Positions 7,666 through 52,235 of a stretch of 62,131 bases of DNA are shown one piece after another. The stretch is taken from the NCBI GenBank assembly GCA_021324815.1, contig JAJPIJ010000003.1, positions 1 to 62,131 of the forward strand, written 5' to 3'. The DNA is from Gammaproteobacteria bacterium (lineage in GTDB: Bacteria > Pseudomonadota > Gammaproteobacteria > JAJPIJ01). The notes below the pieces were generated by a model that was given only the letters and a program-made list of their open reading frames with translations, did no database searches and was not told the DNA's origin. Each line of letters starts with the position of its first letter. The stretch's first letter is position 1. Position numbers and translations under genes: made by a program.

Positions 7666-7676
7666 GGAGAGAAAAC

Positions 7677-31976: not shown

Positions 31977-32210
31977 ATGGCGCGTTTATTTCTGCTTTTC
32001 CTGATTGCCGCCCTGGTGTACCTCGTCCTGCGGCTGTTCCCGCCCTCCCGGCGTCCACCGGCGGTTCCGCCGGCGGCGGCCTCGTCAAAACTGGTCGGTT
32101 GCGCCCACTGCGGGTTGCGCGTGCCGGAGGCGGAGGCGGTGCGGCAAGGGGGGCGATATTACTGTGATCGGTCGCATGTGCCCGGCGGCGGGGGGGCGTC
32201 CCCGGCATGA
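31977..32210 (+). CDS. PP0621-type membrane-anchored zinc-ribbon protein
   Basis: The 77-residue protein has one N-terminal membrane helix (ARLFLLFLIAALVYLVLRLF), a proline-rich linker and a C-terminal zinc ribbon of the form CAHCGLRVPEAEAV...YYCDRSH (three Cys and one His). Such small proteins commonly precede pilS. The ATG at 31977 matches the helix start; a TTG at 31959 is the alternative. It overlaps pilS by 4 bases (ATGA), so the two are translationally coupled. A link to pilus control is from gene order only. Confidence 0.8.
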   Translation: MARLFLLFLIAALVYLVLRLFPPSRRPPAVPPAAASSKLVGCAHCGLRVPEAEAVRQGGRYYCDRSHVPGGGGASPA

Positions 32211-33820: not shown

Positions 33821-35137
<1,317 letters not shown>

Positions 35138-35308: not shown

Positions 35309-35323
35309 TGGTATGTATAATGC
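35309..35323 (+). promoter_or_regulatory. Sigma-54 promoter of pilA
   Basis: TGGTATGTATAATGC has the obligatory GG and GC with exactly 10 bases between, matching TGGCACG-N4-TTGC at the key positions. Transcription would begin near 35335, giving a leader of about 120 bases before the pilA ATG. The adjacent pilR supports sigma-54 control. Confidence 0.65.
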
Positions 35324-35455: not shown

Positions 35456-35875
35456 ATGAAGAAACTGCAACAGGGCTTTACGCTCATCGAATTGATGATC
35501 GTGGTCGCGATCATCGGCATTCTGGCGGCGGTGGCGATTCCGGCGTATCAGGACTACACCATCCGCGCGCGCGTGACGGAAGGCATCGGCATGGCGGCGG
35601 CCGCGAAGACCTCGGTATCCGAGTACCGGTTGAGCAAAACCGGCTTCCCGGCGGACAATCCCACGGCCGGCATTTCCTCGACCATCAAGTCGCAGTACGT
35701 CGCGGGGTTGACCATCACCAATGGCGCAATCACGATTACTTACAGCACCCTCGGTAATGCCAACGCCGATGGCAAGACAATTATCTTTAACCCCACCTTC
35801 ACCAACTCAACGGTGCAGTGGAGTTGCACGGGTGGCAATATGCCGGCCAAGTACAAGCCGGCGAATTGCCGCTGA
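35456..35875 (+). CDS. pilA: Type IV pilin PilA (major pilin)
   Basis: The 139-residue prepilin has a short leader cut by PilD after Gly7 (QQG-FTLIE). N-methyl-Phe is the first mature residue, and Glu12 (mature Glu5) and a long hydrophobic helix ([19 protein letters not shown]) follow. The C-terminal disulfide loop is formed by the two cysteines in QWSCTGG and PANCR, which closes very near the end. AGGAG precedes the ATG. The middle and C-terminal parts are rich in Ser, Thr and Asn (for example [10 protein letters not shown]), offering possible glycosylation positions. It is an independent unit between a sigma-54 promoter and a terminator. Confidence 0.96.
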
Positions 35876-35902: not shown

Positions 35903-35934
35903 AAAAACCCCGGCTTCATGCCGGGGTTTTTTTT
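35903..35934 (+). terminator. Rho-independent terminator of pilA
   Basis: The stem AAACCCCGGC / GCCGGGGTTT with loop TTCAT is followed by a run of eight T. It begins 27 bases after the pilA stop and ends 8 bases before the next ATG. Genes behind it need leaky read-through or a promoter that is not obvious. Confidence 0.92.
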
Positions 35935-35942
35935 GCCGTCAC

Positions 35943-37877
35943 ATGAATGAGCCGTTACGACGCCGGACTTTGTTGACGGGAACGGTTTTCTACGCGCTGA
36001 TGGGCATCGTGTGGCTCGCTTACCGGCCCGGCCTGGGGGGAGGGCTTGTTTTCGATGACCTCATCAACCTGGAGCCGCTCGCTGATTTTGACAACGGGCT
36101 TTTGACCTGGCGGGAGCTGGTTTCAGGCAATGTCTCGGGCCCGCTGGGAAGACCGCTGGCGATGCTCACCTTCGCCTTCAACGTCGCCGCCTCCGGGACG
36201 GACGTCTGGAGCTATAAATTCACCAACCTGGCCGTTCATCTGCTCTGCGGCTGTCTGGTTTTCTGGCTCAGCGGGCGCCTGTTCCGGAATGTTCAGGAAC
36301 TGGCGGCCCACCGTTGGTCGTGGGCGTTGTGGGTGGCGGGCTTGTGGCTGTGCTCGCCTTTGTTTGTGAGCACCGTCCTCTATGTCATCCAGCGGATGGC
36401 GCAGTTATCCGCCTTGTTCACTTTCGCCGGATTGCTGCTCTATGCCGTGGGTCGCCAGAATATCGACGGCAGATTCGCCGGCGGCGCGGTTTTGATTCTC
36501 AGCGCGTTCGTCATCTGCTGGCCGGCGGCGACATTCAGCAAGGAAACCGGCGCCCTGTTCCCACTTCTGGCATGGATCACGGAGATTTTCATATTCCGTT
36601 TCCAAGGCCCGCCGCGCGTGCGCCGTCTGTTGCGGGCGCTGTATTTCGTCACCCTGGCCGTGCCGGCGGCGGTGGTGCTGATCGTGGTTCTGTTGAAGCC
36701 GGACCTGGTGCTGGCGGGATACCAGTTCAGGGATTTTACGCTGTCCGAACGCCTGTACACCGAGGCGCGCATACTCTTCGACTATCTTCGCCAACTGCTT
36801 CTGCCGCGGGGAGGCGCGATGGGGCTTTACCACGATGATTTCCCCCGCTCGACGGGCCTGTTTTCGCCGCCGCTGACGATGGCGGCGCTGCTGTCGTGGT
36901 GCGCCCTGTTGCTCGCGGGCTGGTGGAGTCGCAATACGCGCGCGCGCATGCTCGGCTTCGCCGTGTTTTTTTTCCTGGGCGCGCAGCTGCTGGAGTCCAC
37001 GGCGTATCCGCTGGAGCTTTATTTCGAGCACCGCAACTACCTGGCGGGGTACGGCATATATGCGGGCCTGGCGGCCGCGATGGCCGTGATTTTGGAACGC
37101 ATGAACAAGGCCCGCGGAATTCTCACCCCATGTTTGATCACCATGCCGCTGCTGTTTGCGCTGGCCACGAGCCAGCGCGTGCTGGCATGGCAATCCCCCG
37201 CGCAGGACCTGTTGATTACGGAGGCGCACCATGCCCAATCTCCGCGCGTGAGCATGGATCTGGCGCTGTGGTTCGCCGGTATTGGTGATTTTGCCGATGC
37301 CGAGGAGCGGCTTGAACGGGCCGATGAACTCAGGCCGGAGGACTCCGGTGTGGCGCTGGTGCGGTTGCTTGTTCGCTGTTCGGAAGGACGCCCCGTGACT
37401 TCCGGTGATTACGCCAGACTTCAGGCCGTCAGGGACATCTCGCAGGACATCACCACGACGGCGGCGTTGCAATGGCTCGTGAAGAAGCTGCGCGCGAATC
37501 AGTGCCACGAGGTGGATACAGAATATCTGGCCGATACCATCACACGGTGGTGGCTGCACACCCGGCGGCCCGCCAACGACAACACCCAGTGGAATCTGCA
37601 CATCGCGATGGCTGATTTGTATCGACAGGCGCGGCGTTATGATGCCGCGCTGGCGCATCTCTACGCCGCCCTGGAGATCCAGCCGCAATTGCTCCATCCT
37701 GAGCTGGTCGCCGCCGATATCTGGATAGAACGGCGGAACCTCGAACGTGCCCAGGCGGTGGTGAATGATCTGAAACGGCGCGATCGTCACCGCCAGCGCA
37801 GTCAGACCATGTTGATAGCCGCTTATCAACGATATATTGACGCCATGCGGAAAGGGCCGGCTGCGCCACGACGATGA
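35943..37877 (+). CDS. TMTC-like GT-C membrane protein with C-terminal TPR, paralogue 1
   Basis: The 644-residue protein has about nine to eleven membrane helices in residues 10-410. The first loop carries a DD motif (GGGLVFDDLINLEPL). Conserved segments include GRPLAMLTFAFN, STVLYVIQRMAQLSALF, FSKETGAL and ESTAYPLELYFEHRNYLAGYG. A cytoplasmic or periplasmic TPR tail with paired helices follows (about 425-630). This pattern resembles TMTC/DUF1736 O-mannosyltransferase-like proteins. It lies directly behind the pilin terminator and overlaps its paralogue by 4 bases. Pilin or envelope sugar transfer is inferred from topology and location; no activity is proven by sequence. Confidence 0.75.
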   Translation: MNEPLRRRTLLTGTVFYALMGIVWLAYRPGLGGGLVFDDLINLEPLADFDNGLLTWRELVSGNVSGPLGRPLAMLTFAFNVAASGTDVWSYKFTNLAVHLLCGCLVFWLSGRLFRNVQELAAHRWSWALWVAGLWLCSPLFVSTVLYVIQRMAQLSALFTFAGLLLYAVGRQNIDGRFAGGAVLILSAFVICWPAATFSKETGALFPLLAWITEIFIFRFQGPPRVRRLLRALYFVTLAVPAAVVLIVVLLKPDLVLAGYQFRDFTLSERLYTEARILFDYLRQLLLPRGGAMGLYHDDFPRSTGLFSPPLTMAALLSWCALLLAGWWSRNTRARMLGFAVFFFLGAQLLESTAYPLELYFEHRNYLAGYGIYAGLAAAMAVILERMNKARGILTPCLITMPLLFALATSQRVLAWQSPAQDLLITEAHHAQSPRVSMDLALWFAGIGDFADAEERLERADELRPEDSGVALVRLLVRCSEGRPVTSGDYARLQAVRDISQDITTTAALQWLVKKLRANQCHEVDTEYLADTITRWWLHTRRPANDNTQWNLHIAMADLYRQARRYDAALAHLYAALEIQPQLLHPELVAADIWIERRNLERAQAVVNDLKRRDRHRQRSQTMLIAAYQRYIDAMRKGPAAPRR

Positions 37878-39826
37878 CGGAAGGGCTGGCAGAGAATGGC
37901 GGAAGGATGAAGTCCCCGCTATCCGTGAACGAGACCCTGCTGATCGGCGCCGGGTGCATTGCGCTCGTTTTGTTGTGCGCGCGCCTCTACTGGCCCGGCC
38001 TGGGTGGTCCGCTGATCTTCGATGATTTTCCGCAGCTCTCCCCCCTGCTGGTCCTGGATCCAGGCCCGCAACTGGACTGGCGCGGTTATGTGACGAGCAA
38101 CAGCGGCCTGCTGGGGCGTCCGGTCGCCATGGCCAGCTTCTTGATGAATGCGCTGGGCAGCGGGCCGGACATTTCCGCGTGGAAATACACCAACGTCATG
38201 ATCCATTTGCTGACCGGCCTGGTGTTGATCTGGCTTTCCGCCTGCCTGTTCGCGGCGCGACAGCGGGGAGCCATGAGGCCGTTGCCGGCCTGGACGCCGG
38301 CCTTGGTTGTCGGCGGATTCTGGATGCTGCACCCCCTGCACGTCAGCACGGTTCTTTACGTCGTTCAACGCATGGCGCAGCTCTCGGCGCTTTTCTGTTT
38401 TGCCGGCATGTTGTGTTACTGGCAGGGGCGGCGACTGCAGATCGCCGGTCATAAAGGCGGACATCCGCTGGTGGTGCTTTCTTATCTCGTCTTCATGCCG
38501 CTTGCCGCGTTCAGCAAGGAGAATGGCGCCTTGTTGCCGGTTTACACCCTGCTGATGGAGATCTATTTTCTGAAGTTCAACGGCGATCGCCTCACCCGGC
38601 GCATCGTCATCGGCTCCTTCGTCCTGTTTCTGCTGATTCCCGGCGTCACCGGTTTGTGGGCGTTGCTGGCGCACTACCACTATTCGTTGCAGGCGGCATA
38701 TGCGCTCCGCGATTTCGATCTCACGCAGCGACTGCTGACCGAGCAGCGGATATTGTTGCTGTACATGTCGCAAATACTGGTCCCCACGCTGGCAAAATTC
38801 GGATTGTTCCATGACGATATTCCACTCTCGACGGGATGGTTGACGCCGCCGTCGACGCTGGGCGCGGGATTGGTCCTGCTGCTGCTCGTTTGGTTTGCCT
38901 GGAAGATCAGGGACCGGCTGCCGGTTGTCGGCTTCGGTATTGCGTTTTTTCTCGCCGGGCACTTGATGGAATCGACGATTCTGCCGCTGGAATTGACATT
39001 CGAACATCGCAATTACCTTCCTTCCTACGGTCTTTTGCTGGCTGCCTGCGATCTGGTGCGCACGATGAACTGGGCGGCGGGCGTTAAAGCGGCCATGGCG
39101 CTTGCCGCCGGTGCGTTATTCAGCTTTGTCCTGTACCTGCATGTTGATAAATGGTCCAGTTATCCGAAAATGCTGGCCTATTTCACCCGGACCCATCCCT
39201 CCTCGCCGCGCGTGCGCGCCGGCGTGGCGGAATATCTCACGGAACAGCGTCGCTATCGGGATGCGCTGCTGCTGCTTGAAGGCGAGCAAACGCAGGGGGC
39301 ATTGCTGCAGAGACTTTACATATACTGTCGCAGTGATCATCGCCTGCCGCCGCAGGCCCTGGAGCGGACGGCGGATTCCCTGACCCATGCGCTGGATAAT
39401 TATGCCGTGAGCGGCTTGATTGAGTTGGGTCGCGAAGGGTTGGATGACGGCTGCCGGTTCGATCAGGCGCGATATCTTGAGCTGACGGAGACGGCCGACA
39501 AACTGGGGGTGCCGGCCGGTACCAGCCGCTACAAGCTTCTAATCTTTCAGGCCCATTATCAGTGGCGGCTTCGCAGGTTCGAAGATGCAATGGCCACCCT
39601 GCTTGAGGCATATAATATTCTTCCCGAGGATCCGGTGCCTCTGTTTTTGATGACCGAATGGCTGATCAGCCTGAATCGCATGGATGAGGCGCGCATGTAT
39701 TACGATAAGGCCGTGCACGTGGCGCGGGCTTCGCACAAGAACTACAGCGTATTCATCGACAGCGTTGGTCTCATGTTCACCGCGCCGGAAAAGGCGGCGC
39801 ACTGGCAACGGGAGGATTTGTCGTGA
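37874..39826 (+). CDS. TMTC-like GT-C membrane protein with C-terminal TPR, paralogue 2
   Basis: The 650-residue protein has the same layout as its upstream neighbour and clear alignment along its length. Matching segments are GGPLIFDDFPQLSPL, GRPVAMASFLMN, STVLYVVQRMAQLSALF, FSKENGALLP, FHDDIPLSTGW and ESTILPLELTFEHRNYLPSYG. The first loop keeps the two Asp. The C-terminal 200 residues are helical repeat-like (SEYRLSKxxxDALLLLEGEQ-type helices) but diverge more. ATGA overlaps the end of paralogue 1. An in-frame ATG at 37907 could be the start. Two retained copies suggest different sugars, linkages or acceptors; that is inference. Confidence 0.75.
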   Translation: MTEGLAENGGRMKSPLSVNETLLIGAGCIALVLLCARLYWPGLGGPLIFDDFPQLSPLLVLDPGPQLDWRGYVTSNSGLLGRPVAMASFLMNALGSGPDISAWKYTNVMIHLLTGLVLIWLSACLFAARQRGAMRPLPAWTPALVVGGFWMLHPLHVSTVLYVVQRMAQLSALFCFAGMLCYWQGRRLQIAGHKGGHPLVVLSYLVFMPLAAFSKENGALLPVYTLLMEIYFLKFNGDRLTRRIVIGSFVLFLLIPGVTGLWALLAHYHYSLQAAYALRDFDLTQRLLTEQRILLLYMSQILVPTLAKFGLFHDDIPLSTGWLTPPSTLGAGLVLLLLVWFAWKIRDRLPVVGFGIAFFLAGHLMESTILPLELTFEHRNYLPSYGLLLAACDLVRTMNWAAGVKAAMALAAGALFSFVLYLHVDKWSSYPKMLAYFTRTHPSSPRVRAGVAEYLTEQRRYRDALLLLEGEQTQGALLQRLYIYCRSDHRLPPQALERTADSLTHALDNYAVSGLIELGREGLDDGCRFDQARYLELTETADKLGVPAGTSRYKLLIFQAHYQWRLRRFEDAMATLLEAYNILPEDPVPLFLMTEWLISLNRMDEARMYYDKAVHVARASHKNYSVFIDSVGLMFTAPEKAAHWQREDLS

Positions 39827-39854
39827 TGCTCGAAACTGGGGGGCGCACGCAGGC

Positions 39855-40748
39855 ATGGAACCGCCGTCGCCAGCCGTGAACGCGTCGATGAGCGGCGTCA
39901 GCATCATTCTGCCGGCCCACAATGAAGCGCCGGCGGTGGCCGCGCTCATCCCCGCCTTGCGCACGCTGTATCCCGCGGCCGAGATCATCGTCGTGGATGA
40001 CGGCTCCGGCGACGACACCGGCGAGGCCGCCCGCAAGGCCGGCGCCAGGGTGATCCCGCACCCCTATCGCATGGGCAACGGCGCCGCGATCAAGTCGGGC
40101 GTCCGCGCCGCCCGCGGCGAGGCGTTGGTGTTCATGGACGCCGACGGCCAGCACGCCCCCGCCGATATCGACCGCCTGATCGACAGGATGAACCAGGGCT
40201 ATGACATGGTCGTGGGGGCGCGCGCTGGAGGGTCGCAGGCCAGCGTCGGCCGCTGGCTGGCGAATTCCTTCTACAATCGCTTTGCCAGCTGGATGGTGGG
40301 ACACCGGGTCGAGGACCTGACCTCGGGCTTCCGCGCCGCGCGCGCCGGCAGGTTCCGCGAGTTCCTGCATCTGCTGCCCAACGGCTTTTCCTATCCGGCC
40401 ACGTCGACCATGGCGTTTTTCCGCTCGGGCTACGCGGTGGCTTACGTGCCCATCGTCGCCGGACGGCGGACGGGCAAAAGCCACATCCGGCCGCTGCGTG
40501 ACGGCATCCGTTTCCTGCTGATCATGTTCCGCATCTGCACCCTGTACTCGCCGCTCAAGCTGTTTCTGCCCATCAGCGCGTCGGTGTTTGTCACCGGCCT
40601 GGGCTACTATTTGTACACGTTTCTGACCATGCACAGATTCACGAACATGAGCGCGCTGCTGTTCATCGCCTCCCTCCTGATCTTTCTCATCGGCCTGGTC
40701 TCCGAGCAGATCACCATGCTGTTGTACCAGAAAAGCAATCAGCGATGA
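39855..40748 (+). CDS. Family-2 glycosyltransferase (DPM1/GtrB-like, membrane anchored)
   Basis: The 297-residue protein opens with SIILPAHNEAPAVAALI, then VDDGSGDDT, GNGAAIKSG and the metal/sugar-nucleotide motif MDADGQH (Asp95, Asp97). Two C-terminal membrane helices (about 228-250 and 265-285) follow, as in polyprenyl-phosphate sugar synthases. It would load a sugar from a nucleotide donor onto a polyprenyl phosphate. That is exactly the donor type GT-C enzymes such as the two upstream proteins use. An ATG at 39888 is an alternative start. ATGA overlaps the next gene. Confidence 0.85.
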   Translation: MEPPSPAVNASMSGVSIILPAHNEAPAVAALIPALRTLYPAAEIIVVDDGSGDDTGEAARKAGARVIPHPYRMGNGAAIKSGVRAARGEALVFMDADGQHAPADIDRLIDRMNQGYDMVVGARAGGSQASVGRWLANSFYNRFASWMVGHRVEDLTSGFRAARAGRFREFLHLLPNGFSYPATSTMAFFRSGYAVAYVPIVAGRRTGKSHIRPLRDGIRFLLIMFRICTLYSPLKLFLPISASVFVTGLGYYLYTFLTMHRFTNMSALLFIASLLIFLIGLVSEQITMLLYQKSNQR

Positions 40749-41809
40749 GAGTGCTGATCGACGTCAACCATCCCGCCCACGTTCATTTTTTCCGTCATCC
40801 CCTGCGGATGCTGCGCGAACACGGACATGAGGTGGTGGTGACCAGCCGCGACAAGGAAATGGCGCTGGATCTGCTGCGCGAGCTTGGCATCCGGAATGTT
40901 CCCCTGTCCAGCCAGGGCGGCGGCGGCCTGCTGACGCTGGCCCGCGAGCTGGTGATCAGGGATGTGCGACTTTATCGCGTGGTGAGGGAATTCCGCCCCC
41001 ACGTCATGGCGGCGATCGGCGGCACCTTCATCGCCCATGTGGGCGCGCTGACAGGCGTGCCGTCGCTGGTGTTCTATGACACCGAAAACGCCACACTGCA
41101 GAATGCGATCACCTATCCGCTGGCCTCCTGCGTGTTCGCGCCGCGCTGCTACGAGGCCTGGCTGCCGGCGCGCCGGCATGTGCGCTACGACGGGTATCAT
41201 GAGCTGTCCTATCTTCACCCGCGTTATTTCTCGCCGGATCGGCGCATCGCGGAGGATAACGGCCTGGCCCGCGACGGCGACACGTTCTTTCTCCGGCTGG
41301 TGTCGTGGCGGGCGAGTCACGACATCGCCGAACGTGGCTGGACGACGGAACTCCTGCGCGGGGTGGCCGGCAAATTGTCGGCGCTGGGACGGGTGCTGAT
41401 CTCATCGGAGGCGGCGCTGCCCGCCGATTTGCAGGAATTTCGTTACGCCGGGAGCGCGGCGCAGGTGCATCACGTCATGGCGTTCTGTCGCGCGTTCGTG
41501 GGCGAGAGCGCGACCATGGCCTCGGAGTGCGCCGTCCTCGGCGTGCCGGCGATCTATGCGGCGCACACGGGCCGCGGTTACACCAACGAGCAGGAACGGC
41601 GTTACGGCCTGGTGATCAACGTGCGCTCGCTGGACTGGCCGACCGTGGAACGGGCGATGGATCGATTGCTGTCACTGCCGCCCGATCATGGTCGAAAGGC
41701 GAGGGCGAAACTGCTGGCCGGGACCATCGACGTGGCGGCCTTCGTCGTCGAGTGCCTGGAAACCTTTCCAGAGCCCCTGCGCCGTTACCGGCATTCGCAG
41801 GCCGCCTGA
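40745..41809 (+). CDS. DUF354-family glycosyltransferase-like protein
   Basis: The 354-residue protein starts MRVLIDVNHPAHVHFFR and continues with EVVVTSRDKEMALDLL. A central DTENATLQNAITYPLA segment and a C-terminal sugar-nucleotide-like part (SATMASECAVLGVPAIYA) are visible. These are DUF354 features, related to UDP-GlcNAc 2-epimerase/GT-B proteins and common in surface polysaccharide loci. Whether it is an epimerase or a transferase is not readable. The ATG overlaps the GT2 stop, and the AsnB start follows after 1 base. Confidence 0.85.
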   Translation: MRVLIDVNHPAHVHFFRHPLRMLREHGHEVVVTSRDKEMALDLLRELGIRNVPLSSQGGGGLLTLARELVIRDVRLYRVVREFRPHVMAAIGGTFIAHVGALTGVPSLVFYDTENATLQNAITYPLASCVFAPRCYEAWLPARRHVRYDGYHELSYLHPRYFSPDRRIAEDNGLARDGDTFFLRLVSWRASHDIAERGWTTELLRGVAGKLSALGRVLISSEAALPADLQEFRYAGSAAQVHHVMAFCRAFVGESATMASECAVLGVPAIYAAHTGRGYTNEQERRYGLVINVRSLDWPTVERAMDRLLSLPPDHGRKARAKLLAGTIDVAAFVVECLETFPEPLRRYRHSQAA

Positions 41810-41810
41810 A

Positions 41811-43706
41811 GTGTGCGGCATTGCCGGCTGGTTCAGTCCGCTCCCGATCGATTCCGGCGACGCGCTGCCGCGATTGCAGAACATGATCGCCGCCATCGCC
41901 CATCGCGGGCCGGACGGGCGGGGGTATGTCTGCACCGCGCACGCGGCCCTCGGCCATGCACGGCTGGCGATCATCGATCTGGAGGGCGGGCGGCAGCCGC
42001 TCAAGGACCCGACGCGCGACGTGACCATCGTGTTCAACGGCGAAATTTACAACTACCCGCAGTTGCGCCGGGAATTGCAGGGGCAGGGGCATGTATTCGC
42101 GACGCATTCGGACACCGAGGTGATCCTCAAACTCTATTTGCAGGAAGGCGCGGGAGGGTTTGATCAACTGCGGGGCATGTACGCCTTCGCCTTGTGGGAC
42201 GGGGAGCGGCGACGCGCGATTCTGGCGCGCGACCCGCAGGGGATCAAGCCGTTGTTCTACCGCCTTGATCACGGAGGGCTGGGCTTTGCCTCGGAAGCCA
42301 AGGCCTTGCTGGCCGGCGGGCATGCCGCCGCCGAGCTGGACGAATCCTCCCTGCACCTGCTGATGAATTTCCGTTATCTTCCCGGCGAACGGACGCTCTT
42401 CCGCGGCATCGAACAGCTTGCGCCCGGTGAGATATTGCAATGGGACCTGGCCGGGCGCACGCAGCGCTTCACGATAGCGCCTCCCTCCTCGGCTCCGGGA
42501 GCGGACGTTCTGGCGGCGCTGGAGGATTCCGTCGCCGTGCATCTAACGGCGGACGTGGAGGTGGCGGCGTATCTCTCCGGCGGCATGGATTCCGCCGCCG
42601 TGGCCGCGCTGGCGGCCAGAAAAAATCCCGCGTTGCGCACGTTCACCCTGCGGGTGGGTGATGATCCGCGCGAGGCGGATCATGCCGCGCAAACAGCGGC
42701 GCTTTTGGGCGTAAGAAATCAGGTGTTGGAGTGCCACGCGGACATGAATTCCCTGCTGCCAAGATTAATCTGGCATCTGGAGACGCCCAAGGTTAACGCC
42801 GTGCAGGTGGCCTTGCTGGCGCGGCACACCGTCCGCCATGTGAAGGTGGCGCTTTCCGGCCTCGGTGGCGACGAATTGTTTCTGGGCTACAATTTATTCC
42901 GGTGGCTGGCACAGGCCCACGACCTCGGCCGGATCCTGCCTGGTTTCCTGGGCAGACTGCTGGGCGGCGCGGGGGGTGAGATCGTGCGCCGCCTCCAACG
43001 GGCGCCCTGGAGCGAAGCGGAGCGCGCCATGAGGATCGTGGGAGAGCTCCCCGACTGGCCGCGTGTCTATGGCTTGATGCGCAACGTCTGGGACAGTCCG
43101 GCGCTGCGCCGCCTCATCTATGGACCGCGTCTGCTCGACTCGGCGCTGCCCGATGCGTTTGACGTCATCCGCGCGCGCTGGCCCGCGGGGATGGATCCGG
43201 TCATGGCGGCCGCGCGCTACGAGCGGCGTGAAAAAATGGTCAACGATCTGCTGTGGAACGAGGATCGATGCAGCATGGCGGCGGGGTTGGAGGTGCGGGT
43301 GCCGTTTGTCGACACCGTGCTGGCCTCCGCGGTTGCGCGTCTTGATCGCCGCGTCTTGATGAACGGGGGCCGGCCCAAGGCGTGGCTGCGCCGCGAATTG
43401 CAAAAGCTGCTGCCGGCGCAGGTCATGCGGCGGCCCAAGAGCGGTTTTCAGATCGACGCGCCGCGTTTTTACCATGAGTTTCTGCGGATGCCGGCCCATG
43501 ACATTCTCTCGGAGGCGGCGCTGCGCCGGCACGGCCTCTTCAATCCGCGTTTCGTAAGACGACTGATGGCATTGCCGCCGGCGCCGCGCCACCGCTGGCA
43601 CTATTTCATGCTTTTTCTCATGCTGGGCATGCATCTGTGGATGGAACAGTTCGTCCTTCCAGGACCTGCCGCCGGCGGTCGTCTGACGGTTGCCCGGGGG
43701 TCATGA
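41811..43706 (+). CDS. Asparagine-synthase-like glutamine amidotransferase
   Basis: The 631-residue protein starts at a GTG that puts the nucleophile at Cys2 (MCGIAGWF), which decides the start. The class-II glutaminase domain (HRGPDGRG, NGEIYNY) is followed by an ATP-pyrophosphatase synthase domain with SGGMDS at residues 256-261. In glycan loci such proteins (WbpS-type) amidate sugar carboxylates such as uronic acids; a true asparagine synthetase role is less likely here. It has a 1-base gap to DUF354 upstream and an ATGA overlap downstream. Confidence 0.88.
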   Translation: MCGIAGWFSPLPIDSGDALPRLQNMIAAIAHRGPDGRGYVCTAHAALGHARLAIIDLEGGRQPLKDPTRDVTIVFNGEIYNYPQLRRELQGQGHVFATHSDTEVILKLYLQEGAGGFDQLRGMYAFALWDGERRRAILARDPQGIKPLFYRLDHGGLGFASEAKALLAGGHAAAELDESSLHLLMNFRYLPGERTLFRGIEQLAPGEILQWDLAGRTQRFTIAPPSSAPGADVLAALEDSVAVHLTADVEVAAYLSGGMDSAAVAALAARKNPALRTFTLRVGDDPREADHAAQTAALLGVRNQVLECHADMNSLLPRLIWHLETPKVNAVQVALLARHTVRHVKVALSGLGGDELFLGYNLFRWLAQAHDLGRILPGFLGRLLGGAGGEIVRRLQRAPWSEAERAMRIVGELPDWPRVYGLMRNVWDSPALRRLIYGPRLLDSALPDAFDVIRARWPAGMDPVMAAARYERREKMVNDLLWNEDRCSMAAGLEVRVPFVDTVLASAVARLDRRVLMNGGRPKAWLRRELQKLLPAQVMRRPKSGFQIDAPRFYHEFLRMPAHDILSEAALRRHGLFNPRFVRRLMALPPAPRHRWHYFMLFLMLGMHLWMEQFVLPGPAAGGRLTVARGS

Positions 43707-44899
43707 ACGCTGATTCCGTGCATGGCGTGATCGCCGCGGATGCGAGGGCCGCACTGGCGTCGACCCTGGCGTGGAGCCGGGCGCGCGATTATCACGGCCA
43801 CACCAAACATGATGCGTTGGCGAGTCCGCTGCTGTGGGCGCTGTGCGGCTGGGGCAAATGGCCGCGCCTGCTCGCAATCCAGGCCGTCATGCGCAGTCCG
43901 GTCAATCTGCGCCCGCTCCTGGGCGTGCCCAAGACCTGCAATCCCAAGGGACTGGCGCTTTTCGTCCACGCCCATCTGGATCGGCACGCCGTAAACCGGA
44001 CGCAGTCCGATCTGGACGAGGCGCAGCGGCTGTTGCAACGACTGATGACGATGCGATCACCGGGTCGCTGGCGCGGACTGGCGTGGGGCTATCCCTACCC
44101 CTGGCAGGATTTGGGATTCTTTGCGCCCGCGAACACCCCCAACGCCGTCGTCACGGCGTTCATCTGCGAGGCCTTTCTGCATGCCCACGCCGTTACTGGC
44201 CTGCGGGAGTGGTTGGAGGTGGTGGCGCAGGCGATTCCGTTTTTTCTCGGTGATCTGCGCGTGCTCAAGGACACGCCCGATGAACTTTGTCTCTCCTACA
44301 TGCCGGTGGACATGCGCATGCGGGTGATGGACGTGAGCATATTGATCGGCTCGGTGCTGGCCGGGTACGAACGGCAGGCCGGCGACCGCAGTCATCACGA
44401 CACGGCCCGCCGGCTGGTGAATTACGTCGTGCGCCGGCAGACGGAATACGCCGCCTGGTTTTACACCGATCCGCCCGCGGACTCCCCCGTCTGCCATGAC
44501 AACTACCACACGGGTTTCATCCTTGATGCGCTGTGGCGCTACATGCAGGCCACCGGCGATCGCGGTCACGAGGAGGCGTATTACCGGGGTCTGCGCTACT
44601 ATCATGATCATTTGTTCAACGCTGACGGCTCTCCCCGGTGGATGAGTGATCGCGATTATCCCCATGATATCCATGGCGCGGCGCAAGGCATCATTACCTT
44701 CGCGCGTCACGGGGACGCATATCCCGGCACGGCGGACAGGATTGTGGCGTGGGCGTTGAGACGCATGTACCATCCGGCGGGACGTTTTTACTATCAGGAA
44801 ACGCCCTGGTACCGGAAGAAATTCACCCTGATGCGCTGGTGCAACGCCTGGATGGCGCGGGCGCTGGCGCATTATCTGCGCTGCGGGGCGGAGACATGA
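43703..44899 (+). CDS. Predicted alpha-helical-barrel sugar enzyme, function unknown
   Basis: The 398-residue soluble protein has repeated helix pairs and aromatic patches such as GYPYPWQDLGFF, NYHTGFILDALWRYMQATG and YYHDHLFNADGSPRW. The YPHDIHGAAQGIITFARHG segment is also typical of (alpha/alpha)6-barrel enzymes acting on carbohydrates. Proteins of this kind recur in polysaccharide clusters, sometimes annotated by homology as delta-aminolevulinate dehydratase-like. I cannot name the reaction. The start at 43703 (MNADSVHG) is set by the ATGA overlap with the previous gene. The next gene overlaps by 4 bases too. Confidence 0.65.
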   Translation: MNADSVHGVIAADARAALASTLAWSRARDYHGHTKHDALASPLLWALCGWGKWPRLLAIQAVMRSPVNLRPLLGVPKTCNPKGLALFVHAHLDRHAVNRTQSDLDEAQRLLQRLMTMRSPGRWRGLAWGYPYPWQDLGFFAPANTPNAVVTAFICEAFLHAHAVTGLREWLEVVAQAIPFFLGDLRVLKDTPDELCLSYMPVDMRMRVMDVSILIGSVLAGYERQAGDRSHHDTARRLVNYVVRRQTEYAAWFYTDPPADSPVCHDNYHTGFILDALWRYMQATGDRGHEEAYYRGLRYYHDHLFNADGSPRWMSDRDYPHDIHGAAQGIITFARHGDAYPGTADRIVAWALRRMYHPAGRFYYQETPWYRKKFTLMRWCNAWMARALAHYLRCGAET

Positions 44900-45678
44900 A
44901 AGCCGTGGAACCCTTGCAACCGGAGCCGCGGGCCACGCTGACGGGCGAAATCCGTTCGTTCTGGTCCCGCAACGTCAATGCCGAGCGCATCATGGGCAGG
45001 GCGGTCTCGCGGCACGCGCGCGGCTCCGAGGGTTATTTCCAGGATTTGCAGGAACAGCGTTACCGTTCACACCGCCATCTGCTGCCGTGGATCTGCTCCA
45101 TGCAGCCGGGAAAGGCGGTGCTTGAGATCGGCTGCGGGGTGGGGCTGGACAGCTACGTCATGGCGCGGCGCGGGCTGCGGGTGACCGCCGTCGATTTGAC
45201 GTTCGTGGGCGTGCAGACCGCCAAACGGCGTTTCGAGCGCGAGAACGTCGCGGCGGCCTTCGCGGTGACCGACGCCTGTCATCTGGCCTTCGCGAACGAA
45301 ACCTTCGATTACGTGTATTCCTTCGGAGTCTTGCACCATGCGGCCGACACCGAGCGCACGATCAAGGAGGCCTTCCGCGTGCTCAGGAAGGGCGGTGAGG
45401 CGCGCATCATGCTTTATCACCGGCGCTCGCTCAACGAGCTGGTGCACCGCCTCTTGAAGGTGCCGTTCGAGGACAAGGACGAGCTCTGTCCGGTGGTCCG
45501 GCGTTTTACCGTGGCTGAGGTCCGGAAAATGTTCTCCGATTTTGCCCGCGTGGAGACGAAGATCGAACATCTTTTTGGCGAAGGCTACGGGATGCTGTTC
45601 CGATTGACGCCGGGATGGCTCCATCGCCTGCTGTCGGGGCGTTTCGGCTGGCATCTTATGATCGTGGCCGAGAAATGA
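44896..45678 (+). CDS. SAM-dependent methyltransferase (class I), first of three
   Basis: The 260-residue protein has motif I VLEIGCGVG at about 75-83, then VTAVDLT and the Methyltransf_11-type YVYSFGVLHHAADTERTIKEAFRVLRKGG. The acceptor is unknown; within the cluster a sugar O- or N-methyl group is likely. The start is fixed by a 4-base overlap with the preceding gene. Confidence 0.88.
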   Translation: MKAVEPLQPEPRATLTGEIRSFWSRNVNAERIMGRAVSRHARGSEGYFQDLQEQRYRSHRHLLPWICSMQPGKAVLEIGCGVGLDSYVMARRGLRVTAVDLTFVGVQTAKRRFERENVAAAFAVTDACHLAFANETFDYVYSFGVLHHAADTERTIKEAFRVLRKGGEARIMLYHRRSLNELVHRLLKVPFEDKDELCPVVRRFTVAEVRKMFSDFARVETKIEHLFGEGYGMLFRLTPGWLHRLLSGRFGWHLMIVAEK

Positions 45679-45691
45679 GACGCGCCAGCGC

Positions 45692-46600
45692 ATGACCGCC
45701 TCATCAACCGTCTCCATCCGCGCGCCCGTGCCCTTCCTGCGGCGCCTGCGGCTGTACCTTTCCATGATCCGCTACGGCAACGCCCATAATGAGGACTTTG
45801 CCCGCGAGCACGCGGAGTTTTTCAGGGCCATGACGGCTTACTGCGGCGGCTGGCGCGGCAAGCGGGTCCTCGATGTGGGCTGCGGAAAATCCTTCTGGCT
45901 GACGCTGCTGCTGCACAGCGCCGGCGCGGAGGTGACCGGCATCGACGCCGAGGTGACCGACCCGCAAGTCCATTTGCGGAAGTACCTGCACATCGCGCGC
46001 CGCAACGGCATCGAGCGCGCCCTGCGCACCTGGTTCTGGGATTACCGCTACGCGCGCCCCTACTACCTGGCGCTGGCGCGAAACGTTCCCTTTGCGCTGC
46101 GTTTCGACGGCATCGATTTGCGCGCCATGGACGCCACGGCCCTGGATTTTCCCGACAACACTTTCGATCTCGTGGTATCGCACGAGGTGTTCGAGCATTT
46201 ACCCGATGTTCCCGGCACCCTGGAATCCCTGGCGCGGGTGCTGAAGCCCGGGGGACGCACTTACATTTACATTCACAATTACACCAGTCTCTCCGGTGGT
46301 CATCACATCGCGTGGAAATATCCGGATACCGAGCCGTCCGCCATCGTTCCGCCATGGGATCACCTGCGTGAAAACCGCCATTCCGACATCCCTTCCTGGA
46401 TCAACCGGCTGCGCGAGTGTGAATACCGCGGGATGTTCGAGAGTCTTTTTGACATCCTCGACTGGATTCCACTCAAGGAGGAAGGGCGCGCACTGCTGAC
46501 ACCCCCTCTTCGGGAGGAACTGGCGCAATTCAGCGAGCAGGAGTTGTTGACCAAGGGTTTCGTGATCGTGGCGAAGCCAAAGAAGTCGCCGGATAAATGA
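45692..46600 (+). CDS. SAM-dependent methyltransferase (class I), second of three
   Basis: The 302-residue protein has motif I RVLDVGCGKS (58-67) and VTGIDAEVTD. Motif II/III segments are LVVSHEVFEHLPDVPGTLESLARVLKPGGRTYIYIHNYTSL. It begins 13 bases after its neighbour. The long middle insertion with aromatic residues may form the sugar-binding site. The specific substrate is not known. Confidence 0.85.
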   Translation: MTASSTVSIRAPVPFLRRLRLYLSMIRYGNAHNEDFAREHAEFFRAMTAYCGGWRGKRVLDVGCGKSFWLTLLLHSAGAEVTGIDAEVTDPQVHLRKYLHIARRNGIERALRTWFWDYRYARPYYLALARNVPFALRFDGIDLRAMDATALDFPDNTFDLVVSHEVFEHLPDVPGTLESLARVLKPGGRTYIYIHNYTSLSGGHHIAWKYPDTEPSAIVPPWDHLRENRHSDIPSWINRLRECEYRGMFESLFDILDWIPLKEEGRALLTPPLREELAQFSEQELLTKGFVIVAKPKKSPDK

Positions 46601-46613
46601 ACGGAGCCTGCGG

Positions 46614-48800
46614 ATGAAACAGGTGCTGGAAAATTTCAAGACCGGCGCATGCACCGTGGAGGAGGTGCCGGCGCCGATCAACCGCGCCGGCTTCGTGCTG
46701 GTGCGCAAACATTATTCCCTGATCAGCAGTGGAACCGAGGGGGGCACCGTCAAGCTGGGGCAGATGAGCCTGCTCGGCAAGGCGCGGGCGCGGCCCGAAC
46801 AGGCGCGCAAGGTCATCCAGGTCGCGAAACAGCAGGGGCTGTTGACGGCCTACCAGGTGGCCATGCGGGCGCTGGAAATGCCCGTCGCGCTCGGCTACAG
46901 CAGCGCCGGCGAGGTCATCGAAGCGGGAGAGGGCATCGATGACCTGCGCCCGGGGGACAGGGTGGCCTGCGCCGGCGCCGGTTTTGCAAATCACGCCGAG
47001 GTGGTGAGCGTGCCGCGCAATCTGTGCGTCAGGGTGCCGCCTGAAGTTTCGTTGCGTCACGCCGCCTTCACGACGATTGGCGCGATTGCGATGCAAAGCG
47101 TGCGCGTCGCCCGCGCGCAACTGGGGGGAAACATCGTAGTTATCGGGTTGGGGCTGGTGGGCCTGCTGACCAGCCAGATTCTGCGCGCGGCGGGCTGCCG
47201 CGTGTTCGGCATCGACATCGATCCGGAGCGAACCGGCTTCTTCCGCAAACAGAACTACGGCGAGGCCGCGATGGGCGGCGATCCCAACGTGCGGGAGCGG
47301 GTGCTGGCCTGGACGGAAAATTGCGGCGCGGATGCCGTGATCATCACCGCGGCCACCGAGGACAACGGGCCGGTGGCCATGGCCGGGGAACTGCTGCGGG
47401 TCAAGGGCCGCACCGTGGTCGTGGGGCGCACGCCCATGACGGCGCCGCGCGAGACCTACCTCTTCAAGGAACTCGAACTATGCACCTCGATGGCCTACGG
47501 GCCGGGCACCGGCGATCCCGTCTACGAGGTCGCGGGCGTGGATTACCCGATCGGCTACGTGCGCTGGACGGAAAACCGCAACATGGCCGCCTTTCTCGGC
47601 CTGCTCGCGGATCGCCGGCTGTCGCTTGATGAACTGATCACGCATGAATACAAGATTGACGACGCCGGCGCCGCTTTTGATCTGATCAGCGGCAGGACCG
47701 GCAAACGATCCATCGCGGTGCTGTTGCATTATCCGCTGCATGAGCCCGACGTGCGGCAACCTGCGCGCCGGGTGACGCTGGGGGCGCCGGCGTCCGCCGC
47801 GGCGGGTGATCGCGGGGCGGCAATCGCGACCGCCGCGGTGAATGTCGGCGTGGTGGGGGCCGGCAGTTTCGCCACCAATGAATTCCTGCCGCTGCTGGCG
47901 AAACAGCCCGGCATGCGGCTGCGCGGCATCGCCTCGGCGACCGGCGTGCGGGCACGAGCGCTCGGCAAACGCTACGGTTTCGCGTTTTGCGCCGCCGAGG
48001 CGATGGAGGTCATCAACGATTCCGCAACCCGGGCGGTGTTTCTGCTCACCCGCCATGACACCCACGCGCCACTGGCCGAGGCGGCGTTGCGCGCCGGCAG
48101 GCACGTGTTCGTGGAGAAACCCCTGGCCCTGAACCTTGAAGAGCTGGAGCGCGTGGAGGCTGCGTGGCGGGAAAGCGGTTGCCAACTCATGGTGGGCTTC
48201 AACCGCCGTTATGCGCCGCTGGCCTTGCGGCTGCGCGACGAGTTCGCGCAGCGGGCGCAACCGATGTCGGTCTCCTATTGCGCCAATGTCGGCTACCGCC
48301 CTCCCGGCCACTGGCTGCATGACCCGGCGGCGGGCGGCGGCGTCATCGTGGGCGAGGCCTGCCATCACATCGACTTTTGCCTGTGGCTGGTGAACCGGCC
48401 GCTGGCCGGCGTGCGGGTGTCGGCACTCGGCGTCTCCGGCGGCTTGCTGTCAAGCGACAACGTGCATATTGAACTGCGGTTCGAGGACGGCTCGCTGGCG
48501 GTCATTCGCTACCTGTCAAATGGCTCCAGGGCCTATGCCTCCGAGCGCGCGGAGGTTTTCTGTGACAACCGCACCGCCGTGTTGACGGATTTCCGCCTGC
48601 TGGAACTGGCGCAGGATTCACGGATGCGTCGGCAGCGGCGGTGGCTGGGAGCCGACAAGGGCCACGCCGCGCAAATCGCCGCATTTTTCGCCGCCCTCCG
48701 TGGCGGGGAATCTGTCGGGACCGAGAGTTATCTCGCGTCGTCGCGCGCCGCCATTGAAGCGGCGCGATTGGCCGTTTTGGCGGCCGGCGGAACCGGCTGA
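46614..48800 (+). CDS. Two-domain oxidoreductase (zinc-type dehydrogenase + GFO/IDH/MocA)
   Basis: The 728-residue protein joins an MDR/alcohol-dehydrogenase-like half (GROES-like opening, NAD-binding VVIGLGLVGLLTSQILRAAG; about 1-370) to a C-terminal GFO/IDH/MocA half (VGVVGAGSFATNEFLPLL, EKPLALNLEELERVE, GEACHHIDFCLWLV). This bidomain type occurs in glycan clusters and should modify nucleotide sugars, for example oxidise or dehydrate a ring position. NAD(P) use is implied by both glycine-rich motifs. Confidence 0.87.
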   Translation: MKQVLENFKTGACTVEEVPAPINRAGFVLVRKHYSLISSGTEGGTVKLGQMSLLGKARARPEQARKVIQVAKQQGLLTAYQVAMRALEMPVALGYSSAGEVIEAGEGIDDLRPGDRVACAGAGFANHAEVVSVPRNLCVRVPPEVSLRHAAFTTIGAIAMQSVRVARAQLGGNIVVIGLGLVGLLTSQILRAAGCRVFGIDIDPERTGFFRKQNYGEAAMGGDPNVRERVLAWTENCGADAVIITAATEDNGPVAMAGELLRVKGRTVVVGRTPMTAPRETYLFKELELCTSMAYGPGTGDPVYEVAGVDYPIGYVRWTENRNMAAFLGLLADRRLSLDELITHEYKIDDAGAAFDLISGRTGKRSIAVLLHYPLHEPDVRQPARRVTLGAPASAAAGDRGAAIATAAVNVGVVGAGSFATNEFLPLLAKQPGMRLRGIASATGVRARALGKRYGFAFCAAEAMEVINDSATRAVFLLTRHDTHAPLAEAALRAGRHVFVEKPLALNLEELERVEAAWRESGCQLMVGFNRRYAPLALRLRDEFAQRAQPMSVSYCANVGYRPPGHWLHDPAAGGGVIVGEACHHIDFCLWLVNRPLAGVRVSALGVSGGLLSSDNVHIELRFEDGSLAVIRYLSNGSRAYASERAEVFCDNRTAVLTDFRLLELAQDSRMRRQRRWLGADKGHAAQIAAFFAALRGGESVGTESYLASSRAAIEAARLAVLAAGGTG

Positions 48801-48806
48801 AGGGCA

Positions 48807-49712
48807 ATGGAACAACAACCGGTCGGCCCGGGGCACTACGACGCGGAATGGATCGAAGACGCGTGGGGAGCGCGCGGCAACGAGGAATTGCTGCGCGAAG
48901 GACCCCTGCGCCCCCGCCCGCGCGTGGCGCGCGCCATGGCGCTCTGCCGTCTGTCGGCCGGCCTGCGTTTGCTTGATGTCGCCTGCGGACGTGGCGAGGT
49001 GCCGGCCATCGCCTGCCAGCAGGGCGCGGACGGCATTGGCCTGGATTACTCCGCGGATTCGATTGCGTTTGCCAGTCGCGTGCGCCGGATCCACGGCCAC
49101 GGCCCGGGTGGTGTCATGCGTCTCGTGCGCGGGGACGCCACGGCATTGCCGTTCTGCGACGCCAGCTTCGATCGGGTGACGATGCTCGACATCATCGAAC
49201 ACCTGCATCCGCCACAACTGGAAAACATGTTCCGCGAGGCGAGGCGGGTGCTCAAGCCCGACGGCTTCGCCGTCATCCACACCCTGCCCAACCGCTGGGT
49301 GTACGAATTTGCCTATCCGCTGGCGCGCCGGTTTTATGGGCGCATCCCCGCCGATCCGCGCAGTCGCCACGAGCGGCAGATTCACGTCAATGAGCAGGAC
49401 ATCGTGGGCCTGTCGGCAATGCTGAAACGCTGCGGATTGAACCACCGTCTGTGGCTGGAGCAGCACATCCCGGCCCAGGCCCGCTGGAACGCCGGCGCCG
49501 ATCATTATCGGGACACCCGTGACCGGGTTTATCCGCTGATGGCGGGCCGCCTCGGCCGCCTGCTGGAGGCGCTGAGCCGGACGCCGCTCAAGTTGATATT
49601 GTGCAACGACATTTTCGGAATCCTGTGGAAACAGGGTCCGCCGCCCGTCGCCGCCGGTCCGCTGCCGTGGGCGCCCGCCGAACGCGCGCTCATTTGGATC
49701 CTGGGCGGGTGA
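48807..49712 (+). CDS. SAM-dependent methyltransferase (class I), third of three, last gene of the glycan run
   Basis: The 301-residue protein has LLDVACGRG (55-63) as motif I, GIGLDYSADSIAFA, and VTMLDIIEHLHPPQLENMFREARRVLKPDGFAVIHTLPNRW. It resembles Methyltransf_11/23 enzymes. It ends the co-directional run of ten genes; the next gene on the other strand ends one base after its stop. Substrate unknown. Confidence 0.85.
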   Translation: MEQQPVGPGHYDAEWIEDAWGARGNEELLREGPLRPRPRVARAMALCRLSAGLRLLDVACGRGEVPAIACQQGADGIGLDYSADSIAFASRVRRIHGHGPGGVMRLVRGDATALPFCDASFDRVTMLDIIEHLHPPQLENMFREARRVLKPDGFAVIHTLPNRWVYEFAYPLARRFYGRIPADPRSRHERQIHVNEQDIVGLSAMLKRCGLNHRLWLEQHIPAQARWNAGADHYRDTRDRVYPLMAGRLGRLLEALSRTPLKLILCNDIFGILWKQGPPPVAAGPLPWAPAERALIWILGG

Positions 49713-50672
49713 TCAGGCGGCGGCGGGGGTGTCCGATCTCAGCAACAGCCACAGCCCCGCCGGCACCCAGGCCAGGATCAGCACCAGCACTCGCAGCATG
49801 AGATAGGCGGATACCACTGTTGCCGCCGGCAATTGCAACGCGCCGAACAGCAGCACACCCGCGATTTCCACCGTGCCAATGCCGTTCACGCTGATCGGGA
49901 TGTACGCCACCAGGGAGCTTGCCGCGGCGATCAGCGTCACCGAAATGATGCCGGCACCCTCCTCTCCGAATGCCCGAAACATGCACCAGTAGGCGGCGCC
50001 GGTGACAAATATCTTTACCGCGGTGAACATGAAATTGAGCAGGACGCGTTGCGGATGATGCCGCGCGGTGGCCAGCAGTTCATGCGCCGTGTCCGAGAAA
50101 AAACGCCGGAATCTGACCACGCCGGGGCGACCGGATTTCAGCGCCGCGATGAGCAGGACGGTTGTTCCCACGACCAGCCCTGAGGCGACCAACCAGAATC
50201 CCGCCTCCGTCCTGTACGCCAGCGGGGGCCACCTGCTTCGGAAGTCGTGCCATGCCAGCAGCAGGCCGGCGGCGGCGCAAACGGCCATCATGACGATGGT
50301 GATGACCTTGTCGAGCAGGCTGCGGCCGACGCTGATATGCCACGGCAGATGGCGCGCCCTGAGCAGGGCGGAGATTCCGGCGATGTCGCCGACCTGTCCG
50401 GGAACGATCAAATTCAGCGCCCAGCCCACCCAGTACACCGGCAGGAACACCGCCCACGGCACCGCGCCGTCGCGGCCGATGAAGAGGTGCGAGTTATAGG
50501 CGCCTATCAGCGTCGACGACAGGATCAGCGCGGCGCTTGCGGCCGCCCACGCGGGCTCCAGCTGACGAAGCGCCGCGAGGATCTGCCGGCCGTCCACATG
50601 CATGAGCAGGGCCGCGAGCAGGGCGGTGCCTACGAGTGCCCGCACGTATCGATGGCCGCGCCACGCGTTCAA
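49713..50672 (-). CDS. Lysylphosphatidylglycerol synthase TM-family (UPF0104) membrane protein
   Basis: The 319-residue protein has about eight membrane helices and the family signature pattern: NLIVPGQVGDIAGISALLRAR, GRSLLDKVITIVM, YIPISVNGIGTVEIAG and LILAWVPAGLWLL. Only the membrane half is present; the soluble LPG-synthase domain is missing, as in the many stand-alone UPF0104 proteins of glycolipid loci. The start is probably the TTG at 50672, whose bases overlap the TGA of the hexapeptide gene; GTG at 50645 is an alternative. Its role is unknown, perhaps flipping or gating a lipid-linked sugar. Confidence 0.8.
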   Translation of the reverse strand: MNAWRGHRYVRALVGTALLAALLMHVDGRQILAALRQLEPAWAAASAALILSSTLIGAYNSHLFIGRDGAVPWAVFLPVYWVGWALNLIVPGQVGDIAGISALLRARHLPWHISVGRSLLDKVITIVMMAVCAAAGLLLAWHDFRSRWPPLAYRTEAGFWLVASGLVVGTTVLLIAALKSGRPGVVRFRRFFSDTAHELLATARHHPQRVLLNFMFTAVKIFVTGAAYWCMFRAFGEEGAGIISVTLIAAASSLVAYIPISVNGIGTVEIAGVLLFGALQLPAATVVSAYLMLRVLVLILAWVPAGLWLLLRSDTPAAA

Positions 50673-51280
50673 TCGTTGATTTCGCTGATCACGGTCAGGG
50701 GATTGCCGGCGCAGAAGACGTTGGCCGGCACGTCGCGTCGCACCAGCGAGCAGGCGCCGATCACGGAATTGTCGCCGATGCTGACGCCGTGCAGCACCAC
50801 CACCTGCACCGAAATCCACACATTGCGCCCGATGCGCACGGGCGCGGCCGTCACTTCACCGCCGCCCGGTTCGCGCCGCCGCCGGGACAGGCTGTGCGCC
50901 GGGGTGTCGGTGATGTAGGCGTCGGCGATGTTGGACCAGTCGCCGATCGCCACGCTTTGCGCGCTTTGTATCGCGGTGCCGTTCAGACCGGCATGGTGGC
51001 CCAGGCGCACGACGGCGTTTGCATTCAGCGTGCGGATGCACACCGGCTTGATGGCGTTGCCGATGATCAGGCAGTCATTGCCGAATTCCACGCGACCGGG
51101 TCCCGAGATGTACAGCGGGCCGTAGACTCGGAACCCCCGGCCGGCGCTGACGCGGATGCCGAGCAGGGCAAATTTGATCCGGTGCCACCAACCGGATAAC
51201 CAGGCTCCAAGGGCCGGCACGAGCAAATGGGGCTCATGACGCAGCCGGTCGACGTATCGGGAGAATCCGGAATCATTCAC
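50669..51280 (-). CDS. Hexapeptide-repeat (left-handed beta-helix) acyltransferase
   Basis: The 203-residue protein has the hexapeptide repeats [LIV]-G-x4 in the middle (LGHHAGLNGTAI, IGDWSNIADAY) and the closing IGDNSVIGACSLVRRDVPANVFCAGNP of WbbJ/WcaF/LacA-type enzymes that use acetyl-CoA. Sugar O-acetylation is likely. The start is GTG at 51280, with GGAG about 12 bases upstream. It overlaps suhB by 8 bases and the LPG-TM gene by 4, so suhB, this gene and the TM gene form one minus-strand operon converging on the glycan run. Confidence 0.85.
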   Translation of the reverse strand: MNDSGFSRYVDRLRHEPHLLVPALGAWLSGWWHRIKFALLGIRVSAGRGFRVYGPLYISGPGRVEFGNDCLIIGNAIKPVCIRTLNANAVVRLGHHAGLNGTAIQSAQSVAIGDWSNIADAYITDTPAHSLSRRRREPGGGEVTAAPVRIGRNVWISVQVVVLHGVSIGDNSVIGACSLVRRDVPANVFCAGNPLTVISEIND

Positions 51281-52151: not shown

Positions 52152-52235
52152 GGGCGGTCCGCCGGCTTGAGGCGTATTCTCGTATTCTAACGTATGTGGC
52201 TGCGCAGCAAGCCATGAATTTGCGACAATGCCGGC

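Follow-up and report, generated by a model that had tools for sequence, protein, structure and literature searches.

Glycosylation of type IV pilins is known from experiment for a few transferase types, namely TfpO/PglL and TfpW. TfpO/PilO and PglL are enzymes of the Wzy_C/WaaL type that use lipid-linked O-units, and TfpW takes its sugar from a polyprenyl-phosphate donor. Eukaryotic TMTC proteins carry a C-terminal TPR array and depend on dolichyl-phosphate-mannose, a donor made by a DPMS-type GT2 enzyme. Haloarchaea assemble a glycan on dolichyl phosphate: in their Agl pathway (AglJ, further glycosyltransferases, the methyltransferase AglP, and AglD) the glycan is built on polyprenyl monophosphate and is methylated. 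In the pilin-accessory cassettes of Pseudomonas aeruginosa, the pilin gene is followed by a Rho-independent terminator, for which a role in attenuating the accessory gene has been proposed, and the pilin is glycosylated by the cassette-encoded enzymes TfpO and TfpW (PMC11841053). For TMTC1-4, an O-mannosyl function is described (PMC11292533).

The locus described here lies in a 62,131-nucleotide stretch of gammaproteobacterial DNA (the window; contig JAJPIJ010000003.1 of assembly GCA_021324815.1) and matches the design of the P. aeruginosa pilin-accessory cassettes. On the forward strand, pilS (32207..33817), which encodes a type IV pilus sensor kinase (Pfam 6TM_PilS, HisKA, HATPase_c) and provides context and a regulator, is followed by pilR (33821..35137), encoding a sigma-54 activator (Response_reg, Sigma54_activat, HTH_8); pilR stands beside the cassette in relatives as well. 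A sigma-54-type promoter-like site, TGGTATGTATAATGC (35309..35323, plus strand), is found 133 nt before the ATG of pilA (35456..35875, plus strand), the gene of a 139-aa major type IVa pilin that scores above the cut-off of TIGR02532, has the prepilin motif GFTLIELM and a C-terminal cysteine pair, and is the proposed glycan acceptor. Between pilA and the GT-C gene that begins at 35943 lies an intrinsic terminator on the same strand (35903..35933; MFE of the stretch -26.2 kcal/mol, z -3.3), a proposed attenuator. Both elements recur in related loci: sigma-54-like sites precede pilA at 50 of 52 loci (12.6 expected from shuffling), and a hairpin that resembles a terminator and is accompanied by a T run occupies 51 of 55 pilA/GT-C junctions (3.5 expected from shuffles), the same hairpin type being present at 1 of 40 GT-C/GT2 junctions. 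The initial annotation had treated the genes from 35943 onward as a unit, a frame that proved too narrow: just ahead of these genes, and preceded by pilS and pilR, come pilA and a strong terminator, and the run is the rear portion of a pilin-accessory cassette composed of pilS-pilR, the sigma-54-like site, pilA, the terminator and the run itself.

Placement of a GT-C gene behind a pilin gene is conserved well beyond the window. About 100 other bacterial genomes were compared overall; 79 loci, from broadly defined Gammaproteobacteria and partly alike through shared ancestry, were collected by scanning public genomes, and co-occurrence was counted in 370 genomes of the class Gammaproteobacteria, 109 of which (about three in ten) carry the GT-C/TPR family. 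Where there was room upstream of the GT-C gene (70 loci), a pilin gene stood immediately before it on the same strand in 54, mostly less than 150 nt away, and on the opposite strand in 2; 16 had no same-strand pilin gene within 1 kb, so that some members of the family may have acceptors other than pilins. At 44 of 73 loci the GT-C gene is followed, less than 1.5 kb away and in the same orientation, by a GT2 gene, and at 56 of 73 a GT2 gene is present somewhere in the locus. Outside the class, within the phylum, a pilin gene adjoins the GT-C gene at five further loci (L193, L195, L196, L198 and L200). In a single family (L184-L186), the GT2 gene and the genes that follow it stand directly behind pilA, with the GT-C gene located at another place in the genome. 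From this gene association and the features set out below, we hypothesize, with considerable though not complete confidence, that the locus is a type IV pilin O-glycosylation island: a known kind of cassette with a new transferase architecture and a new donor route.

Two tandem genes on the plus strand encode the putative transferases: GT-C/TPR 1 (35943..37877), assigned by fold and family alignment and proposed to be the pilin O-glycosyltransferase, and GT-C/TPR 2 (37874..39826), 33% identical to it. Foldseek alone placed mostly TPR proteins at its top ranks, the TPR half dominating the search; VIA-align then gave GT-C folds. In the predicted structure of GT-C/TPR 1 (pLDDT 94), the membrane half aligns with yeast STT3 (Z 20.2, rmsd 4.4, 325 residues), with a chain of the yeast Pmt1-Pmt2 complex (Z 19.1), with ArnT (Z 17.1) and with PglB (Z 16.4), the first three alignments spanning 325-363 residues at rmsd 4.4-5.3. 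In GT-C enzymes the catalytic acid sits in the loop after the first helix; here D38 and D39, which lie in the first outer loop immediately behind that helix, are invariant in 54 aligned family sequences. By the model, the membrane fold and these acidic residues together place the protein in the GT-C superfamily. The C-terminal half is of TPR type (TPR_19 at 561-621, with helical repeats in the model). No Pfam model matched the membrane half of the window's GT-C protein, which likewise had no match to Wzy_C (PF04932). The genes had been called TMTC-like, a description that holds for the GT-C fold with a C-terminal TPR layout but not for the TMTC_DUF1736 family: the matches listed for 40 family members do not include PF08409, and a genome-wide search at E 10 gave none; by this domain TMTC membership is rejected, and the name refers to layout alone. 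The tandem genes may serve different sites or add successive sugars. The same genome contains a third GT-C/TPR gene (L014, contig G000:C24, 9323-11317, minus strand), inside an MSHA pilus operon whose upstream genes encode MshE, a PilC-type protein and an MshA-type pilin; all three copies of the genome are thus located with pilin genes, and the third predicts that a second pilus type would be glycosylated from the same donor.

The gene that follows the transferases (39855..40748, plus strand) encodes a GT2 protein (Pfam PF00535) with a C-terminal pair of transmembrane segments, probably a polyprenyl-phosphate sugar transferase of DPMS/AglJ-like type. Its best NCBIfam model is AglJ (TIGR04182), at 124.8 bits against a cut-off of 325; the other named matches (PpgS, dolichyl-phosphate hexose transferase, and ArnC at 61 bits) are also below cut-off, and no named DPMS-type equivalog was matched above it, hence we call the protein DPMS-like only. 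Across the 370 class genomes, 97 have both GT-C and GT2, 12 only GT-C, 3 only GT2, and 258 neither (Fisher p 3e-71, a value that ignores kinship among the genomes). In one genome, a GT-C gene with seven stops lies about 1 kb from a GT2 gene with two stops (G035:C1:1405150-1407686); the two seem to have decayed together, as would be expected if each were useless alone. The initial annotation had suggested a decorated, lipid-linked sugar transferred by the GT-C proteins, which fits this co-occurrence but missed the pilin as acceptor. A GT2/GT-C pair could also modify lipid A or the LPS core in the manner of ArnC and ArnT, with GT2 making an undecaprenyl-phosphate sugar that GT-C moves to lipid A or core, and both ArnT (Z 17.1) and ArnC do appear among the matches. 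We consider this very unlikely: the protein transferases STT3 and PMT match the fold equally well or better, the linkage is to pilin genes rather than LPS genes, and the third GT-C/TPR copy belongs to an MSHA operon.

The first GT-C gene opens a run of ten genes with intact domains, all on the plus strand from 35943 to 49712, as had been noted: two GT-C/TPR genes, GT2, DUF354, an asparagine-synthase-type amidotransferase, an (alpha/alpha)-barrel protein, three methyltransferases and a bidomain oxidoreductase. The run is not a chance array of open reading frames, since the whole of it is kept at 71-89% protein identity in a genome of the same genus (L010). Four 4-base overlaps were counted, one fewer than previously reported: GT-C 1/GT-C 2 (37874-37877), GT2/DUF354 (40745-40748), asnB/barrel (43703-43706) and barrel/MT1 (44896-44899), all on the plus strand. 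The remaining gaps measure 28, 1, 13, 13 and 6 nt, in keeping with the initial statement that most are under 30 bases; the gap before GT2 becomes 61 nt instead of 28 if that gene starts at ATG 39888.

Every domain and fold that the initial annotation had named in the genes behind GT2, which we call the sugar-building tail, was found. These plus-strand genes encode a DUF354 protein (PF04007; 40745..41809), a probable glycosyltransferase of GT-B fold; an asparagine-synthase-type amidotransferase (asnB; 41811..43706), whose start we place at GTG 41811 because that start is needed for the N-terminal Cys2 nucleophile (MCGIAGWF); an (alpha/alpha)-barrel protein (43703..44899) assigned from its structure model; and, by domain search, the SAM methyltransferases MT1 (44896..45678) and MT2 (45692..46600), a bidomain oxidoreductase joining zinc-ADH and GFO/IDH/MocA parts (46614..48800), and the SAM methyltransferase MT3 (48807..49712). 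The barrel protein matches no Pfam family; its model (pLDDT 79) resembles GH76, cellobiose/glucose 2-epimerase and GH88/105, matches that do not fix one reaction and support an epimerase- or glycosidase-like fold only.

Counts over the related loci separate a widespread core (pilA, GT-C and GT2) from this tail, an optional extension: 19 loci have the tail, and 89 have the core only, with neither amidotransferase nor barrel gene. That the core does without the tail at so many loci would suit two units placed end to end, with pilA-GT-C-GT2 serving the pilin and DUF354-to-MT3 an unrelated surface glycan. We judge this improbable on several grounds. The barrel gene occurs in 14 of the 370 genomes, all 14 of which also have GT-C and GT2, and in most of the 14 the genes run GT2-DUF354-asnB-barrel, with the barrel gene some 3-4 kb from GT2; 4-base overlaps span GT2/DUF354 and asnB/barrel/MT1; and the full block sits inside a pil cluster in a distant genome of another family (L180), with 35-66% protein identity to the window. 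There the order is pilR-pilA-GT-C-GT2-DUF354-asnB-barrel-MT1-MT2-oxidoreductase-MT3, with one GT-C gene rather than two, followed by oppositely oriented PF03706 and hexapeptide genes and then pilB-pilC-pilD. The tail varies elsewhere: in L184 it comprises a GT9 protein, an FkbM methyltransferase and a pyruvyl transferase, and in L184-L186 a PF03706 protein encoded on the same strand closes the tail, before open reading frames that match the pilB-pilC-pilD of L180. In two Competibacteraceae loci (L122 and L151), asnB-barrel-MT1 is inverted relative to pilA-GT-C and converges on a PF03706 gene, beside which L122 also has a hexapeptide gene, and in L182 a radical SAM/SPASM protein (6753-7868, minus strand) stands behind the oxidoreductase in the slot of the window's MT3.

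Facing the run in the window are two minus-strand genes: one for a PF03706/TIGR00374 flippase-like membrane protein (49713..50819), which ends 1 nt downstream of the run, and one for a hexapeptide O-acetyltransferase (50669..51280), which neighbours the flippase-like gene in L180 and L122 too. TIGR00374 bears the name flippase-like, and PF03706 forms the membrane part of lysylphosphatidylglycerol synthase; this makes the protein the natural candidate to flip the lipid-linked sugar. PF03706 proteins are present at 10 of the 19 loci that have the tail and at 2 of the 89 that lack it, a somewhat circular comparison, the profile having been seeded from some of these loci. The initial claim that the locus has no flippase is sound as regards Wzx but unsafe in general, as this candidate flippase, outside the ten genes themselves, adjoins the run and is conserved with the tail. 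Next to the pair, an inositol monophosphatase open reading frame (51273-52715, minus strand) has its domain from residue 190 onward only, and the 189 residues before it probably reflect an over-long start call; we do not count this gene as part of the island, as it recurs beside tail-less cassettes as flanking synteny.

O-antigen genes were sought in the whole genome, which is 98% complete. Neither PF01943 (Wzx) nor PF02397 (initiating phosphoglycosyltransferase) had a match genome-wide, and a lone PF13440 match is MurJ rather than Wzx. Contig C28 carries the genome's sole Wzy_C protein, among GT9 and GT4 genes, in what looks like an LPS-core ligase locus, and two PF00953 proteins are presumably MraY and one WecA-like enzyme. 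These searches bear out the earlier view that this is not a classical Wzx/Wzy O-antigen locus. They bear as well on whether the run is an exported polysaccharide locus that neighbours pilA by chance, as in the Geobacter xap cluster, which is such a locus beside pilA. Amidotransferases, methyltransferases and bidomain oxidoreductases are common in polysaccharide loci in general; the run, however, contains no polymerase, chain-length protein or exporter, the genome lacks PF01943 and PF02397 matches, and adjacency to pilA is kept over many families, which makes this explanation highly improbable, the least probable of those weighed here.

Under the pilin O-glycosylation reading, PilS/PilR and sigma-54 would drive pilA, and partial read-through of its terminator, as the architecture suggests, would supply the glycosylation genes at a low level. 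The DPMS-like GT2 would load a sugar on polyprenyl (undecaprenyl) phosphate at the cytoplasmic face, and the DUF354 protein, amidotransferase, barrel protein, oxidoreductase, methyltransferases and acetyltransferase would build or decorate the lipid-linked sugar; decoration could precede or follow transfer to the lipid. The lipid-linked sugar would then be flipped by a membrane protein, for which the neighbouring PF03706 protein is the likeliest candidate, and the GT-C/TPR proteins would transfer the glycan in the periplasm to Ser/Thr of the membrane-held pilin, before assembly. The initial annotation spoke of one small sugar; a short oligosaccharide is as likely, because DUF354 is a possible second glycosyltransferase. 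Only tentatively, and with more doubt than belief, do we propose the fully specified version: a short glycan, amidated, methylated and acetylated, would be assembled on polyprenyl monophosphate in the way haloarchaea use dolichyl phosphate, flipped by the PF03706 protein and moved to type IV pilins by GT-C enzymes with TPRs, a family that would be a bacterial cousin of the TMTC protein O-mannosyltransferases.

If the pilin reading holds, a further transferase type would join those known to glycosylate pilins, with a membrane domain outside any Pfam family, a presence in 109 of 370 class genomes, a place mostly in the slot behind pilA, and its own donor synthase. Literature searches on pilin glycosylation with TMTC, TPR or dolichol-phosphate turned up no account of the family, which is weak evidence, as subscription journals were thinly covered. 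Cultured carriers include Pseudoxanthomonas, Lysobacter, Rhodanobacter, Marinobacter and Acinetobacter bouvetii, making the prediction directly testable. Pilin glycans influence phage adsorption and recognition; the GT-C/TPR enzymes could also serve as new tools for coupling simple sugars to proteins, and could bear on the origin of the TMTC O-mannosyltransferases.

Set against the known systems, the locus shares some traits with each. AglJ of the haloarchaeal Agl pathway is the best-scoring named model for GT2, although GT2 stays far below its cut-off and the Agl pathway ends in N-glycosylation by AglB, unlike the proposed pilin O-glycosylation. The eukaryotic TMTC1-4 and PMT O-mannosyltransferases have the GT-C fold, as here, whereas the present family is bacterial, has no PF08409 match and probably has a pilin as acceptor. 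TfpO/PilO and PglL also glycosylate pilins, and TfpO occupies the same slot behind pilA, but the window's GT-C/TPR protein has no Wzy_C match and its genome no PF01943 Wzx. Most similar in arrangement is TfpW, the GT-C D-arabinofuranosyltransferase of the P. aeruginosa group IV pilin cassette, whose gene lies directly behind pilA after a Rho-independent terminator, as here (PMC11841053). Compared by description with TfpW and its cassette, the transferases here have C-terminal TPRs and often stand two or three in tandem; the cassette also brings its own DPMS-like GT2, to which a minority of loci add a sugar-building tail.
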